A stretch of 64,000 nucleotides of DNA from Tridacna crocea (Eukaryota; Mollusca; Bivalvia; Cardiida; Cardiidae): NCBI GenBank assembly GCA_943736015.1, contig OX031060.1:4608001-4672000 (forward strand), read 5' to 3'. Each line of letters starts with the position of its first letter. The first letter of the stretch is position 1. The translations under genes and the position numbers were made by a program. Below the pieces are notes generated by a model that saw only the letters and a list, made by a program, of their open reading frames with translations, made no database searches and was not told where the DNA came from. Below, piece by piece: positions 376 through 58,973 of this stretch.

Positions 376-389
376 AAGTTTAAACATAT

Positions 390-395
390 TTTATT
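390..395 (-). other. LINE polyadenylation signal
   Basis: AATAAA on the minus strand, just inside the 3' end of the LINE and about 215 bases after the RT stop codon. Confidence 0.6.
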
Positions 396-611
396 GTATA
401 TATAAACATACAAATGGATTGGGACGAAAGCTGATAAGAGCTTATAGAGTCCCTTTCCAAAGCAACAACATCCACATGACAGAAATAAAGAAAATGAGAA
501 AAAGAAAAAAAACAAACATATACATACAAAAATTGGTGAGCAAGCTGGAGAAAGAGAGACAAAAAGAGAGAAAGAGAGACAGAGAGAGGTAGAGGTGGAC
601 CTTTTTGAAAA

Positions 612-2486
612 TCATTCGTTAAAACGCTTACTTTCCCTTATATACGACTGAACTTTCAAAAAGATTTCTTCATTTTCCTGAAAAGTAAGAAAATCATTTC
701 CAAAGAGGAGTGTTTGAAGGTCTATAGTAATTTCATAGTACGATATGGAGCGAATGAACTTATTTCTTATAGTTTCATAAAGTGGACATTCAAAGAAATA
801 GTGTGCATTTGTCTCTATAGCACCACATACACAGTTAGGAGAGTCAACTACATTTCTTAAGTACAGATGGTGCTTTAGGGAACTGCAATTATTTCGTAAC
901 CTAGTATGCAAAATTTGAAGGCGTCTTTGTCCTATAAAAAACAATTTATTTGGATATGGCCTATTGTTGTCCAGATACCTTTTGAAACAAGGCAAGGAAT
1001 TCAAATTCCTAATATCTTGAGGAATTGAGTTCCATTCTTCCACAACGGATGGAAGAAAGGATTTTTTATAGAGATTTGTCCTACAAGCAATGGTTCGAAT
1101 ATTATTAGAATTGCGCAAGTTGTAATTGTTAAGGTTGCTATTCAGATCAGGGACAAGATTACTCAGGTAGGAAGGAACAAGGCTTTTAGTCATTTTAAAG
1201 AACAATACAAGTTTGTGTTTACGCCTGCGGTCGCCAAGTGACTCCCAACCACATTCATTTTTTAGTTCATCCAAGGAAACCAGTTTGCTACAACCTGTTA
1301 CTATTCTGGCAGCTTCATTTTGGATTTTGTCTAGATCATTTTTCAGGTATTGAGGGATATTGTCCCAAACGACGTCTCCGTATTCTATTATAGGTCTAAT
1401 GAACGTAAAATATATAACTTGCAAAGATTTCCTATCAAGACATATCTTAAGACGACGCATTATATTTATCCTTTTCCATGCTTTCTCAATAGAATTTTTA
1501 ATATGAAGATCCCATGATCCGTCGTTTGAGAAGTGAAAACCTAAATGTTTATGTGACTGGACATTTTCAATATTTATATTTGACATACAGAGATCGGGGT
1601 GAGAATTTTGAGCATTTTTACGTGTGATGATAAGTGATTCAGATTTTGAAGGATTAAATTTAACCAGCCAGGTTTCTGCCCATTTATTAATTTTTTCTAT
1701 ATCTCTCTGAAGAATTCGTCCCGCATCGTTTGGGTTACGGATAATTAATGATAGACTAGTGTCGTCTGCAAATAGGTTGATACCCGATTCTATGTTTTCG
1801 ACAATATCGTTAATAAATACCAGAAAAAGAAGCGGGCCGAGTATCGATCCTTGTGGGACACCAGCATTTATGTATTGGGCATTAGACTGGCCACCACGCA
1901 GGATAACTTTTTGACGCCTGTTAGAGAGGTAATTAGAAAGCCAATCAAGTAGTTTACCATTTATTCCTGCGCGTCTTAGTTTGAATATCAGACCCTTATG
2001 CCATACTTTATCGAAAGCCTTACTTATATCAAAAAATATAAATCTAATTTCAAGGCCTTCGTCTAAAGCATTGCATATTTTATTATAAAGGAATGTTACT
2101 TGGTTAACTGTAGAGTCGCCAGGCAAAAACCCTGATTGATACGGTGTAAAAAAACTATTTTCATTTAAATAATTAAAAATATGTTTATAAAGTATCCTTT
2201 CAAAAACCTTTTCCATGGTATTAAGAAGAGAGATCGGTCTATAGTTGGACGGCAGGGAAGGATCACCATTCTTAAAAACTGGACAGATATTAGACATCTT
2301 CCATGAAAGGGGTAGTTTACAAGTCTCCAAGCTGAAGTTAAAGAATTGACATAAGGGATTAGCCAACTGGTTCGCTGACTCGCGTAAAATGATGTTACTG
2401 ATACCGTCAGGTCCTGGAGCTTTTCCAACATTTAGATTTATAAGCACGTTCCTGACTTCCAAAGAATCGATGAATACTGAAGTCAA
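612..2486 (-). CDS. LINE reverse transcriptase (3' half of ORF2)
   Basis: An open frame of about 624 residues with the order expected for a Jockey/CR1-type RT. Near residues 20-27 is GKAPGPDGI, then NYRPISLL (81-88), then FFDISKAFDKVWH with the first catalytic Asp, then AGVPQGSILGPLLF, then the catalytic FADDTS box near residue 240. The C-terminal part carries WNSIPQDIR and a Cys/His segment (CVCG, then H, then FFEC) typical of the RT-associated zinc-binding end in these LINEs. The true protein does not start here: the frame opens at the inversion point with TTG, and the endonuclease that should precede it is on the other strand from 2486. No internal stop or frameshift is seen. Confidence 0.9.
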   Translation of the reverse strand: MTSVFIDSLEVRNVLINLNVGKAPGPDGISNIILRESANQLANPLCQFFNFSLETCKLPLSWKMSNICPVFKNGDPSLPSNYRPISLLNTMEKVFERILYKHIFNYLNENSFFTPYQSGFLPGDSTVNQVTFLYNKICNALDEGLEIRFIFFDISKAFDKVWHKGLIFKLRRAGINGKLLDWLSNYLSNRRQKVILRGGQSNAQYINAGVPQGSILGPLLFLVFINDIVENIESGINLFADDTSLSLIIRNPNDAGRILQRDIEKINKWAETWLVKFNPSKSESLIITRKNAQNSHPDLCMSNINIENVQSHKHLGFHFSNDGSWDLHIKNSIEKAWKRINIMRRLKICLDRKSLQVIYFTFIRPIIEYGDVVWDNIPQYLKNDLDKIQNEAARIVTGCSKLVSLDELKNECGWESLGDRRRKHKLVLFFKMTKSLVPSYLSNLVPDLNSNLNNYNLRNSNNIRTIACRTNLYKKSFLPSVVEEWNSIPQDIRNLNSLPCFKRYLDNNRPYPNKLFFIGQRRLQILHTRLRNNCSSLKHHLYLRNVVDSPNCVCGAIETNAHYFFECPLYETIRNKFIRSISYYEITIDLQTLLFGNDFLTFQENEEIFLKVQSYIRESKRFNE

Positions 2487-3805
2487 TGTCTACATACTCC
2501 AACGACATATATAATTTTCTTAACCTCCCAAACCATTTATCAGTTGTTCACTATAATGTTCAAAGTATCAGGCATAAAATTGATCTATTATTCGCTGAAT
2601 TTTCTCAATTTGATATTATTTCCTTTACTGAGACGTGGTTAGAGGAAACGTTTCCTTCCAGCGAATTACTTTTTAAATCTTTTTACCCACCAGAAAGGAA
2701 AGATCGAATTTCGAATCCATATGGAGGTGTTCTTGTCTATGTCAAAGATTCACTATCTTATGTCCGAAGAAATGATCTAGAAATGAAAGAAGTTGAATGT
2801 ATTTGGATCCAAATAAAATTGTGTAATAATAAAAATATCTTACATGGAACATTTTATCGACCACCAAATTCCAACTTGCACTACACTTCCCTACTAGAAG
2901 ATTCAATTAGTCTCGCTATCGACTCAAATATTACTGATGTAGTTATTACTGGTGACTTTAACTTAAACTATCTTAATGCTGCATCATATAGAAAGATTAA
3001 CGTACTCTGTAATCAGTATAACATGTCTCAGCTTATTGAGGAACCAACACATTTTACAGAATGTTCACATTCTTTGATTGATCTTATGTTAGTCACAAAC
3101 AAAGAATCCATAATAATTTCTGGTGTTGGCATACCTGTTCTAGAAAATAGTATCCGCTATCATTGTCCCATATTCAGTGTTTTAAATTTTCTAAAACCAA
3201 AACATAACTCGTATAGACGCATTATTTGGAAATATGATCTTGGGGACTATAATGCATTAAGAAATTATTTCAACAATATCAATTGGGATGAACTTAAATC
3301 GAATGACATTAACATTTATGCTCAAAATATAACTGATGTTATTAAAAGGGGAAGAGACAATACTATTCCACATAAAACAGTTAATGTAAAAGCTCATGAA
3401 CCTCCCTGGATTACTAGTTTGATAAAACGTAAAATCAGACAACGCAAGCGGTTATATAAAAAAGCAAGAAAGTCAAATAATCCAAGTAAATGGCTTAAAT
3501 TTAAAAAGGTCAGAAACGAAGTAATTGACTTAATACGCAAAAGTAAACATGATTATATTGATCGTTTGTCAAATAAATTATGTAATGGTTCATTATCATC
3601 ACGCGATTGGTGGAAAGTGCTTAAAAGTTTTATCAAACCTTCTTCTTCTGAATGCTTACCACCACTCTATGATACTGACAACGATACAATGGTCACTGAT
3701 GTTAATGCCAAAGCAAGTTTACTCAATTCATTCTTTGTTACTCAAACTAGACTAAATGAAAACGATCATGCCTTACCAACTGAACTCTTAGGAAATGATC
3801 AGTAT
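2486..3805 (+). CDS. LINE apurinic endonuclease domain (5' half of ORF2, inverted)
   Basis: An open frame of about 440 element-derived residues. Features of the exonuclease-endonuclease-phosphatase fold are visible in order: HYNVQSIRHK (21-30) with the Asn, DIISFTETWL (43-52) with the catalytic Glu, GTFYRPPN, VITGDFNLNYL (Asp-Phe-Asn), SLIDLMLV and YHCPIFSVL with the late catalytic His. A basic linker follows and ends at LPTELLGNDQYS, which in an unrearranged element would run into the start of the RT piece (LTSVFIDSLEV). The frame stays open for 20 more codons into the flanking minisatellite; those residues are not part of the LINE. It shares its 5' edge at 2486 with the opposite-strand RT frame, as expected at a twin-priming junction. 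Confidence 0.88.
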
Positions 3806-3807
3806 TC

Positions 3808-4070
3808 TACATATGTTTCAATCAATGTCCGTAGAGCCAGCTCGACATTCCAGCTCAAGAGCTAGCTCAACGGCAAAAATACATATACATGTATATGTCA
3901 AAATCAAAGTCCGTTCAGACAGCTCGACACTCCAGCCCAATACATAAATTATATATGTATTTTTGCTGTTGAGCTGGTGGTTGATCTGGAGTGTCGAGCT
4001 GGCTCAACAAGGCTGGTGTTGAGCTGAATGTCGTTTACTGAGCGTTGAGCCAACTTCACGGACGCCTTTG
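3808..4070. repeat. Family X minisatellite, right part
   Basis: Starts with the LINE target duplication and continues the GTTGAGCC units. From about 3945 the units run in the opposite orientation, ending in a segment (GGCTGGTGTTGAGCTGAAT, then GAGCGTTGAGCCAACTT) that is the reverse complement of the left end of the 46.8-kb array. Confidence 0.75.
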
Positions 4071-4599: not shown

Positions 4600-4676
4600 C
4601 GTCGGTGTGCTTCCAAAACCTTGTAACTACAGCTTGTAACAAACTGTAGTTACGAGGTTTTGGAAACACACCGACG
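4600..4676. repeat. Hairpin repeat (family N, copy 1)
   Basis: Arms of about 35 bp beginning CGTCGGTG and ending CACCGACG, around a short centre with CTACAGCTTGTAAC. Related hairpins lie at 23043-23116 and 34299-34373. Confidence 0.6.
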
Positions 4677-4738
4677 AAGTATTTTTTCTTCTGTTTTTGT
4701 GTCTATGGATGTTGTTAACAATATTTTTTTACGTCGTT

Positions 4739-4925
4739 AGCCTTTTACCAAACGACAAAATTTTAGACTGGTCCACAGAAAAAGCAGACAGACGACAAAA
4801 TAAATTAGACTCAAAAATTGAAATTTGTTTCCAGCAGGGTAGAAATAATTATGGAAAAAAAGAAAATGTTGATTACCAGTATTTTCTCCTTTTCGCACAA
4901 TGTTTTCAAACGGTTTCTATTTCTG
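4739..4925. mobile_element. TTAA element family A, diverged copy
   Basis: Begins CCTTTTACCAAACGAC and includes GCAGACGACAAAAT and the palindromic core with TTTTCTCC. Ends are eroded. Confidence 0.6.
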
Positions 4926-5170
4926 AGTCGTACACAAGTTAGGGTTATGTGTATGTGAAATGGTGAAAACTTCTGGAGAACACAAGAAAAGGCCTGCACA
5001 TTTTATACTGTTCAGACAATGTTTTCAATATCTTTTTTCCTCAAAGAGGTAAAAACATGTAATTGTTTTCGTAAAAAAAGGTTAATGAACGTATAAATTG
5101 CGTCTAGCTGTCAAACGATTATCTGGAATTAACGACGAATTATTAATCATAACATGTGAAGCAAAATAAT

Positions 5171-9800: not shown

Positions 9801-12800
9801 TACTTTTGGATGATAAAATAGGTATAAACAGTATTTTAATTGCTGGTTATATTTTATATTTGGTTAGGATTTGGGTTTACCACTTATATAAGAAGTTATT
9901 ATGTAAACTTGTCTTTGGACCTTCTCGTGAACGGCCAATTTTCTTTGAATTCAAACTTGCGACCCCTATATGTAAGACAAGGACTGATCTTTATATATCA
10001 TGTATGGTATATTTATCTAGGCCTATTGTACAATTTTTAGCTGTCAATAGCCAAAATAAGTAAAATTGAAGCTATTTACGACCAACAGTTTTTTACTGTT
10101 AAAAGCTTATTCTACATTTTTACATCCCCCGCAAAATGAATGTTTTTGGAGGTATACTGGAATCGGGACTGTCTGTCCGTGTATCTGTCTGTGAACAGAA
10201 TACTAGTAATTTTGTGTCGCAAACTTCTCCTTCAGTTTTCCTTTAATTGTATTGAAACTTTGCACATATATTGATCATATACTGATGATGTGCATAATGC
10301 AATTTTTAAGTGTCAACTCTTCCTGGTTGAGGAATTATTCCCCCCTTAAACTTGACACTTTTTCTGTCAATGCGCTGGCGGGGGTATTAAGTCTTATTCA
10401 GTGACAGCTGTAGTTTTTGCTATTGACAGTTAACGGTTAGGTATTCTAAAGGTGTTTGGGGGAGGGGGGGGGGGGGGGGGCGCTATTTACAGTTAACTGT
10501 AATCAACCACTAGGATTTTCTTTATCTTTGAGATAAGCATTCGCCTTAGCCAAATCGAAAATAGCCAGTTCTACAATGAGATTATTTGCTATGACGTTTC
10601 AGTAGCTATTATCGGTACTACTGTCGGTACAGTAGTACCAGAAAAGGCCTTTACATTGGGCGAAGATAAACGAAATTCAATCTTGAATGTAATTAGACGA
10701 AAATAATAAGATTATTTTTGTAACATCAAAAGTAGACTGGATACCAGTCCCTTTTCGCGTGTTGCAGACCGTATTATCTTACCATGTTTATTCGACTGGG
10801 ACACGGGTAAACATGAAAATAAGACAGGCAATGAGGTAATGATATTGCAACTCTCCCTTCTCCCCCTGAATAGGTAAAAAACCAATATTTTGGTATCTTA
10901 AAGTTATTTGGAATGGTGGCAACGTGCCCATGTCGAACAGTTTAGATCCAAGACCAGACTGCAACATCGGTGCATTCTGATCTTCATCTACATCGTCCAC
11001 AAATATAATTTTGTTGCTCCCGCAATTAGTTTCTTTTTAACTCTTTACCACACGAGAAAATTTTAGACTGGTCCAAATTGAAAGCATTTGCAGACGACAA
11101 AATAAAGGTGACTGAAAAGTTGAAATTTGTTCTGGGAAGAGTAGAAAAGACTGTGGGGAAAGGAGAAAATGCTGGTGACCAGCATTTTCTCCTTTTCCCA
11201 CAGTGTTTTCAAAGGCTTCTTTCTCAGGGGCGTCAAAAGTAGGAATTGTGTAGTAATGGGTTAAACCGTATGATCATTCCAGTAAGGTTGACTATGATTC
11301 CTACCTTGATACATCTTCGCAAGCCAAGGCCGACGATTCACTACGCTACTCTACCCTTGGCGGATCCAGCTTGATTTTTACGTTCACCCGATACGCTTTT
11401 TCATTGGATGCAGCCAGCTCTAGCTGCAACGAATGAAATCACTCGTAGCATTTCATCTTTGATAAAAATAGAAAAAGGCCTCTACCTTTCGAATAGAAGG
11501 TAAAACATGGAAACCCACGTGGATGTCTGCTTATCGCTTAATGTGTATTCGTAAGCGGTTTATAAAACGATATTTCATTGACTTTTAGAAATATGATGTA
11601 AAGGGGGTAAAAACCAGCATCCAATAGAGGGCGCATCGCAGGAATCTGGAAATTGGGCTAAATCAGCCAAAGTAAGATTCACGTAGTGATCGTAAACTTG
11701 GCTCGCGATGATGACCTTGATAAAGAGATGAAAACCGAGACGGACTACAAGGTGGATCAGATTGATTGACGGATTTATACTTACCACATAGTACACCAAC
11801 TGTCATATAAAGTTGAAACAAATTCTTTGCGAAAAATGCGGCTATGAATCCAGAGGATGCGAGTACGCAGCCAGTCAGTGACAACCTTTTTACTCCAAAC
11901 CTCTTTATCAGGTAACTAGAGATTACCCCTGAATTAATGAATAAAGAAAAACAAATACAATAGCGAAAACAACAATATCTATATTAATACTTGCAGTTCT
12001 AATTATACTAAAAATAAAAGCTAAATCGAAATAGAAAGATCTTTAACCCTACATTTACACCATGTTTCCGGCCGCCACGACCGCCCCGTTTGTCCGAAAC
12101 GAAGTGTGTCGTGAGATTTTGGTTATTTTTTATCTCCATTTACCAACTTTAGTTTAGTCTCTTTACGGTATCTCACGATGCCCGTGACAGGTCGTGAAAG
12201 GAGGTTCCGAAGATGCCCAAAGATTTTCAAAGAATACCTGGGTTCTACTACGGATATGAGTACGTTCCATCCCGGCCCATCACGTTCTGACCAACCTTTT
12301 CAAGCTTCTAGCTTTCCTTTCAGTATCTGACACTGTCAAGGTTTTCATATACATAATGACAGGCAAAGATAAATGTGGAAAAACTTTGCTTGGTGCATTC
12401 ATATAATCTTTGTCTCAGAAAGACAGAATGTGCAGTCGTGATGGAATTCCATATTGAAGTAAGCAATTGGAAAAAGAAGAAGGGCGAGAAAACCGCGATC
12501 TTAAAGTGGCTGAGCCAAAAGATAAAGGAAAAAAGAAAGAAGCAACACCTAAGCCAGTGCTAAACGTTTTTGACCATAGATATCAACACTTTGCAAAAAC
12601 TATCTAAGGATACCTTCAGAGCTCCTTTTACAGATGCTGGGACGGGTAACATCAGTCATTGTAACCTTATCGTAAGTTATTCTTGACTCTTACACATCTG
12701 ACTGTAAGCGTCAATTAGTCATTACTTTACTGTGAAGAAAGGATCCGCCGTAAAGTAGGAAAACTTTGCAATGCATCGTAGAGTCATATTATCATAAAAT

Positions 12801-31379: not shown

Positions 31380-31607
31380 TTAACCCTTTACAACACAATC
31401 CCTACTTTGACGCCCCTGAGAAAGAATCCTTTTGAAAAAACTGTGGGAAAAGGAGAAAATGCTGGTAACCAGCATTTTCTCCTTTTCCCACAGTGTTTTC
31501 TACCCTTCCCAGAACAAATTTCAATTTTTTAGTCTCCTTTATTTTGTCGTCTGCAAATGCTTTCAAGTTGGACCAGTCTAAAATTTTCTCGTTTGGTAAA
31601 GAGTTAA
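31380..31607. mobile_element. TTAA element family A, full copy
   Basis: TTAACCCTTTACAACACAAT to TTTGGTAAAGAGTTAA, 228 bp, perfect palindrome GCTGGTAACCAGC in the core. It shares its right TTAA with the next element. Confidence 0.9.
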
Positions 31608-58690: not shown

Positions 58691-58742
58691 CTAAGCTCGT
58701 GATACAGTCGGTTGCTGCACCAAAATTATATTTATGGATCCA

Positions 58743-58973
58743 TTAACTCATTTACCAAACGACAGAATTTCAGGCTTGTCCAAATCGAAAGTATTTTGCA
58801 GACGACAAAATAAAAGTGACCGAAAATTTGAAATTTGTTTAGTGAAAGGTAAAAAACATTGTTGGAAAAGGAGAAAATGCTGTTTACAAGCATTTTCTCC
58901 TTTTCTCACAATGTTTTCCAAAGGCTTCTTTCTCAGGGGCGTCAAAAGTAGGGATTGTGTGGTAATGGGTTAA
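58743..58973. mobile_element. TTAA element family A, full copy
   Basis: TTAACTCATTTACCAAACGA to GTGTGGTAATGGGTTAA, TTAA on both sides; core AATGCTGTTTACAAGCATT with a slightly changed centre. Confidence 0.88.

Follow-up and report, generated by a model that had tools for sequence, protein, structure and literature searches.

Ostertag and Kazazian are said to have described twin priming in 2001, in connection with 5'-inverted insertions of human LINE-1 (L1). While 5' inversion by twin priming is well known for human L1, it is rarely documented in other LINE families. LINEs of the CR1/L2 clade carry a non-poly-A 3' repeat tail and combine an APE-type endonuclease (EN) with a reverse transcriptase (RT). 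For human L1, two studies give inverted fractions of 18.4% (165/897) in the germline and 21.9% (328/1495) in somatic insertions (PMC12016303), and of 30.9% (639/2068) in a further set (PMC2912911). In these insertions the two cDNAs are separated, or overlap, by a short stretch, within 20 bp in 132 of 287 cases (PMC12016303; see also PMC2912911). According to figures cited in a third study, the lengths of target-site duplications (TSDs) peak at 13–15 bp for L1, at 3–5 bp for L2 and CR1, and at 10–12 bp for RTE (PMC4245944). The cell-culture experiments described there yielded 5' inversions for L1 in human cells, a single one for Nimb-2_DR and none for ZfL2-1 in either cell type; its authors propose that a short second-cut overhang cannot prime the second cDNA (PMC4245944).

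Searches of a literature that mostly excluded subscription journals found no paper on twin priming in a mollusc and, for twin priming with invertebrate or non-LTR LINEs, no title on an invertebrate LINE; in PMC5389967 and PMC2718515, twin priming appears only in the reference lists. The locus described here lies in a window of 64 kb, i.e., the whole stretch of DNA that was analysed (positions 4608001–4672000 of contig C5), in an assembly of 1.05 Gb and 31 contigs. Coordinates are positions in this window unless a contig is named, and the LINE insertion at 376–3807 is referred to as the focal copy.

Layout of the focal insertion and its target site

The focal copy is confirmed as a single LINE insertion within a host tandem-repeat array. 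Its EN and RT parts are bracketed by one TSD, and the locus is organized as follows:

1–364, no strand: host tandem-repeat array, left flank (Tandem Repeats Finder, run on L009: units of ~72 and ~134 bp)
365–375, no strand: TSD copy beside the LINE 3' tail, TACATATGTTT (flank comparison)
376–611, minus strand: LINE 3' UTR and tail (3'-end alignment of 30 loci)
612–2483, minus strand: direct part, the RT half of ORF2, open up to the junction (ORF, Pfam, comparison with collinear copies)
2482–2483, no strand: inner (inversion) junction, 2 bp common to both pieces (base comparison with collinear copies; once in the genome)
2482–3807, plus strand: inverted part, the EN half of ORF2, 5'-truncated at 2482; outer end 3807 read as the internal priming point
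3808–3818, no strand: TSD copy beside the inverted part, TACATATGTTT (flank comparison)
3819–4060, no strand: host repeat array, right flank, with an approximate right limit (alignment of the joined flanks)

The EN and RT frames stand head-to-head and meet at 2482–2486: an open reading frame of 625 aa on the minus strand (612–2489) contains an RVT_1 domain (Pfam, E 8.4e-34), and one of 463 aa on the plus strand (2474–3865) contains an Exo_endo_phos domain (Pfam, E 6.1e-8). A preliminary description of this DNA had reported such a head-to-head pair with uninterrupted frames, and both frames were recovered together with their domains. The span that it gave, 376–3807, is precisely the one bracketed by the 11-bp sequence TACATATGTTT at 365–375 and 3808–3818, and it is these two TSD copies that set the limits of the insertion.

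On the element strand, the TSD reads AAACATATGTA; its end coincides precisely with the outer joint (shuffle P 0.002), and its first four letters (AAAC) could also belong to the tail. When the two flanks are joined with a single TSD copy, they align to the paralogous repeat unit at 122–333 without a gap at the join. The target array itself (1–364 and 3819–4060) is built from ~72- and ~134-bp units in both orientations, with a GTTGAGC... motif, and the right flank of the focal copy includes an inverted array unit.

Inner junction and the LINE family

In the collinear loci L002–L008, the EN part (window 2482–3808) directly abuts the RT part (2486 and below) on one strand, as aligned by BLAST. The sequence of this joint, CAGTATTCTTTAACTTCAGTATTC, is present in 14 of 15 loci checked by pattern; the fifteenth, L006, does not match the pattern, yet is collinear by BLAST. 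In L004, one reading frame stays open across the joint for at least 727 aa, so that the focal copy is a single ORF2 split into two halves of opposite orientation. Divergence is low: the nearest copies (L002–L008) are 98.0–99.9% identical to the focal copy in the EN part and 99.0–99.8% in the RT part.

Compared base by base with 14 collinear copies, the focal junction contains a microhomology of 2 bp (GT, 2482–2483), and 3–6 nt of collinear sequence are missing, according to the assignment of the common bases. A microhomology of 5 bp, suggested by the overlap of the BLAST alignments, was ruled out by this single-base comparison. Base 2484, the first beyond the common GT, is unlike that of all 14 copies checked; it may be part of the inverted piece. 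With up to two mismatches allowed, the head-to-head junction occurs at one site in the 1.05-Gb assembly, and its reversed pattern, used as a control, at none.

The alignment to collinear copies, which had been proposed in the preliminary description as a check, thus returned a near-lossless join with 2 bp of microhomology inside an insertion surrounded by an 11-bp TSD. Many copies with the same head-to-head order, named there among the observations that would speak against its reading, did not turn up, since the junction is confined to one site. The statement that almost no sequence was lost holds at the EN/RT joint (3–6 nt) and fails at the 5' side, where ~5.6 kb are missing. The longest copies start ~5.6 kb upstream of 2482, and the full length amounts to ~9.0 kb (630 + 4975 + 1327 + 2110). 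Because other copies continue upstream, the edge at 2482 represents a 5' truncation and not the 5' end of the element; the focal copy is both 5'-truncated and inverted.

In an alignment of 30 loci, the 3' end of the family reads ATATGTTTAAACT; behind it come AAACT-like units, whose number varies, in place of the poly-A tail of the L1 clade. As in APE-type LINEs, an APE-like EN and an RT are encoded in one ORF2 (Pfam domains; single frame across the joint in L004). An upstream frame in long copies encodes a coiled-coil-like ORF1, for which no Pfam family scores above the cut-off. In comparison with PDB sequences, the RT matches L1 ORF2 and R2 alike (best 59 and 54 bits), which does not discriminate between clades, and the EN part has no sequence match up to E 0.01; the Pfam and PDB searches gave no clade placement of the LINE. 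Among 59 non-inverted copies with both flanks, 37 have a clear TSD of at least 7 bp, with a median of 10 bp, and the other 22 have no clear TSD of this length. The suggestion of a Jockey/CR1-type element in the preliminary description is not supported by these data, and TSDs of ~10–12 bp speak against CR1/L2, for which PMC4245944 gives a peak at 3–5 bp, in what is a partial test, as the cut-off of 7 bp leaves short TSDs out and 22 of the 59 copies show no clear one.

Several observations were made on individual copies. Internal deletions of ~90 bp to 2.8 kb are found at varied places in L003, L015, L070, L074, L098 and L100; an origin from spliced transcripts was considered and rejected, and the gaps were kept as deletions because the element edges lack GT...AG. 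In the collinear copy L039, upstream of the EN (4614–5000), ORF2 starts with hydrophobic stretches, followed directly before the EN domain by GDVHPNPGP, which we take to be similar to a 2A ribosome-skipping motif. A host repeat of ~220 bp, present in many copies of ~70–90% identity in the window (e.g., 11037–11264, 31380–31607, 58737–58973), sits several times between ORF1 and ORF2 of L039 (1302–1522, 2069–2284, 3467–3696) and of other long copies, too. On contig C5, at ~3327170–3330750 (edges of L051 and L049), a LINE copy is split by an insert of ~3.6 kb with TTAA flanks and inverted ends AGGGCAAATC, of which two edges were read and which presumably resembles a piggyBac-type element. At L052 (C1:9991598–9993286), the stretch common to both flanks measures 29–35 bp versus the usual ~10–12 bp, apparently due to a target that is itself a short tandem repeat.

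Six inversions and their origin

The 3'-tail pattern (at most one mismatch) occurs at 103 places in the assembly, 100 of which were taken into a census. The 5' edge was obtained for all 100 copies, the middle stretch of long copies being taken from coordinate tables and not read. L086 and L096, with at most 30 nt of element, were left unclassified. Among the 98 classifiable copies, five are inverted (95% interval 1.7–11.5%), namely the focal copy, L029, L048/L050, L049/L012 and L141/L089. As the focal copy was chosen for being inverted, the fraction without it, 4/97, is also given. The scans for inverted pieces had a minimum length of 13 to 20 nt, so that shorter pieces would be missed. A search with the EN revealed a sixth inversion outside the census, at C1:31.78 Mb (L148/L119/L146); its interpretation as two truncated head-to-head copies was abandoned, as the other side shows one insertion with a ~2-kb inverted part and a 10-bp TSD.

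Other candidates were discarded. The reverse-strand matches of 68–92% at the 5' edges of L014, L030, L065 and L099 concern repeats within the 5' region of the LINE, which are the common ~220-bp host repeat found many times in the window at similar identity; in L133, a 24-nt match ends ~12 nt before the edge, in a part of the LINE that has matches at unrelated loci as well. Reverse matches of 13–25 nt with E above 0.001 were treated as chance. The six inversions have the following dimensions:

Focal copy: TSD 11 bp; inverted part ~1326 nt; gap ~3–6 nt; microhomology 2 nt at the inversion joint and 1 nt at internal priming
L029: TSD 14 bp; inverted part 41 nt; gap/overlap 0–5 nt; microhomology 2 nt at the inversion joint and 4 nt at internal priming
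L048/L050: TSD up to 12 bp (part may be tail); inverted part 32 nt; gap/overlap 0–1 nt; microhomology 1 nt at the inversion joint and 2 nt at internal priming
L049/L012: TSD 11 bp; inverted part 69 nt; overlap ~75–80 nt; microhomology 2 nt at the inversion joint and 4 nt at internal priming
L141/L089: TSD 15 bp with one mismatch; inverted part 14–17 nt; gap/overlap 8–13 nt; joins within an A-run (by eye); 3 nt at internal priming
C1:31.78 Mb: TSD 10 bp; inverted part 1986 nt; gap/overlap ~19–26 nt; 2 nt common at the joint (by eye); 0 nt at internal priming

The focal copy shows one insertion with a TSD, the head-to-head geometry and a near-lossless breakpoint, and the geometry recurs at other breakpoints of the family. 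TSDs of 10–15 bp are present in all six inversions, one of them imperfect: in L141, one of the 15 TSD positions is mismatched, and the longest stretch free of mismatches, 7 bp, does not reach significance by itself (P 0.14). The TSD meets the outer joint (offset 0 or a near-exact match) in five of the six events and ends 2 nt before it in the older C1 insertion. In the census, four of the five inverted pieces are only 14–70 nt long.

The geometry of the focal copy is the one expected from twin priming. The direct part contains the element 3' end and abuts one TSD copy. The inverted part corresponds to the RNA stretch just upstream; its 5'-most edge meets the direct part at the inner junction, while its 3'-most edge lies against the other TSD copy. 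The two cDNAs nearly abut: the gap is 3–6 nt in the focal copy, and five of the six events, each with a different breakpoint, join within ~25 nt of collinearity; L049, with its pieces overlapping by ~75–80 nt, is not a simple case. Finally, at the internal priming point, the microhomology that the target 3' end shares with the RNA adds up to 14 nt over the six events (P 4.5e-5 versus random element positions), although the single nucleotide of the focal copy is by itself no more than chance; a single mismatch beside the joint accounts for the score of 0 in C1.

Very probably, the focal copy arose by twin priming during target-primed reverse transcription of a ~9-kb LINE. This was also the reading of the preliminary description, and it is strengthened by the TSD, the near-collinear join, the unique junction and five more insertions with the same geometry. 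The first nick would prime first-strand cDNA synthesis from the 3' end of the RNA, and this first cDNA would stop within ORF2, close to where the RT part starts. A cut in the second strand would follow at a distance of ~11 nt; the 3' end of that strand would anneal in the same RNA just upstream of the stop and prime a second cDNA, which would copy the EN region and stop at 2482, short of the RNA 5' end. The two cDNA ends would then be joined via the 2 bp of microhomology. The order and timing of the cuts, as well as the descent of both cDNAs from a single RNA molecule, are what we infer here; two sibling RNAs would not be distinguishable from one, because the copies are 98–99.9% alike in the compared stretches. 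With ORF2 split, and ORF1 and the 5' region absent, the focal insertion would have been inactive on arrival.

An ordinary collinear insertion that was inverted later, by recombination or a double-strand break, is very improbable. Short microhomology at the junction would be compatible with end joining, but the outer breakpoint would need to coincide exactly with the TSD edge, as it does, and inversions arising later and independently would neither make the TSD meet the outer joint in every event but C1 (where it ends 2 nt before the joint) nor keep five of the six breakpoints within ~25 nt of collinearity. An artefact of assembly or haplotype joining, which might be suspected for a site inside a tandem-repeat array, deserves equally little credence: a misjoin would not yield an 11-bp TSD at the outer edges together with microhomology at the inner edge, and the same pattern recurs at five further loci, whose breakpoints differ. 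On the sequence pattern, misassembly would thus be excluded, if only indirectly. Least probable are two separate insertions in head-to-head order, as C1:31.78 Mb appeared before its other side was read, since the inverted part lacks both a 3' end and a tail, stops in RNA coordinates within 3–6 nt of the start of the RT part, and shares with it one TSD, with no second TSD seen at its own edge. All three explanations are disfavoured relative to twin priming because each of them needs the coincidence of the TSD with the outer joint several times.

Comparison with known systems

That the family represents a clean and recurrent example of twin priming outside L1, with an AAACT-type tail, is strongly supported. 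A broader reading is conceivable, if somewhat doubtful: twin priming might be general to LINEs of any clade whose second-cut 3' overhang is long enough for annealing to the RNA (~10–15 nt), and outside L1 it might mostly produce mini-inversions only some tens of nucleotides long, which repeat-masking surveys overlook, so that the rate in non-mammals would be systematically underestimated. If this is true, the present family (TSD ~10–12 bp, 5/98 copies inverted, four with pieces of 14–70 nt) would be the intermediate case predicted by the overhang-length idea of PMC4245944. That most of the inverted pieces are very short suggests that inversion surveys based on repeat annotation overlook many events. 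Moreover, a natural family with countable young copies and six resolved inversions makes the overhang idea testable in the germline, across TSD lengths, and without a construct.

Human L1 5' inversions share with this family their geometry and the microhomology at internal priming and inversion joints, and their TSDs of 10–20 bp are similar to the 10–15 bp found here. The two differ in the tail, which consists of AAACT units in the present family and of poly-A in L1, and in the size of the inverted pieces, mostly 14–70 nt here versus a median of 751 bp in the L1 germline (PMC12016303). The inversion rate is lower here as well, with 5/98 versus the 165/897 and 639/2068 given for L1 (Fisher P 3.5e-4 and 1.1e-9, from detection methods that differ).

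CR1/L2 elements resemble the present family in the non-poly-A repeat tail and in the combination of an APE-type EN with an RT. However, PMC4245944 gives a TSD peak of 3–5 bp for CR1/L2 and no inversions for ZfL2-1, in contrast to a median of 10 bp and the inversions described here. The zebrafish element Nimb-2_DR (I group; DT40 chicken cells) is, like the present family, a non-L1 LINE with a TSD peak near 12 bp, and the same study mentions one 5' inversion among its inserts, 30 of which were analysed for TSDs (PMC4245944). Unlike the natural family described here, Nimb-2_DR was a cell-culture reporter with a single inversion, and the likeness concerns TSD and inversion. As one family rather than a cross-family test, the present LINE lies between L2/CR1 and L1 in both TSD length and inversion rate, as the idea put forward in PMC4245944 would predict.
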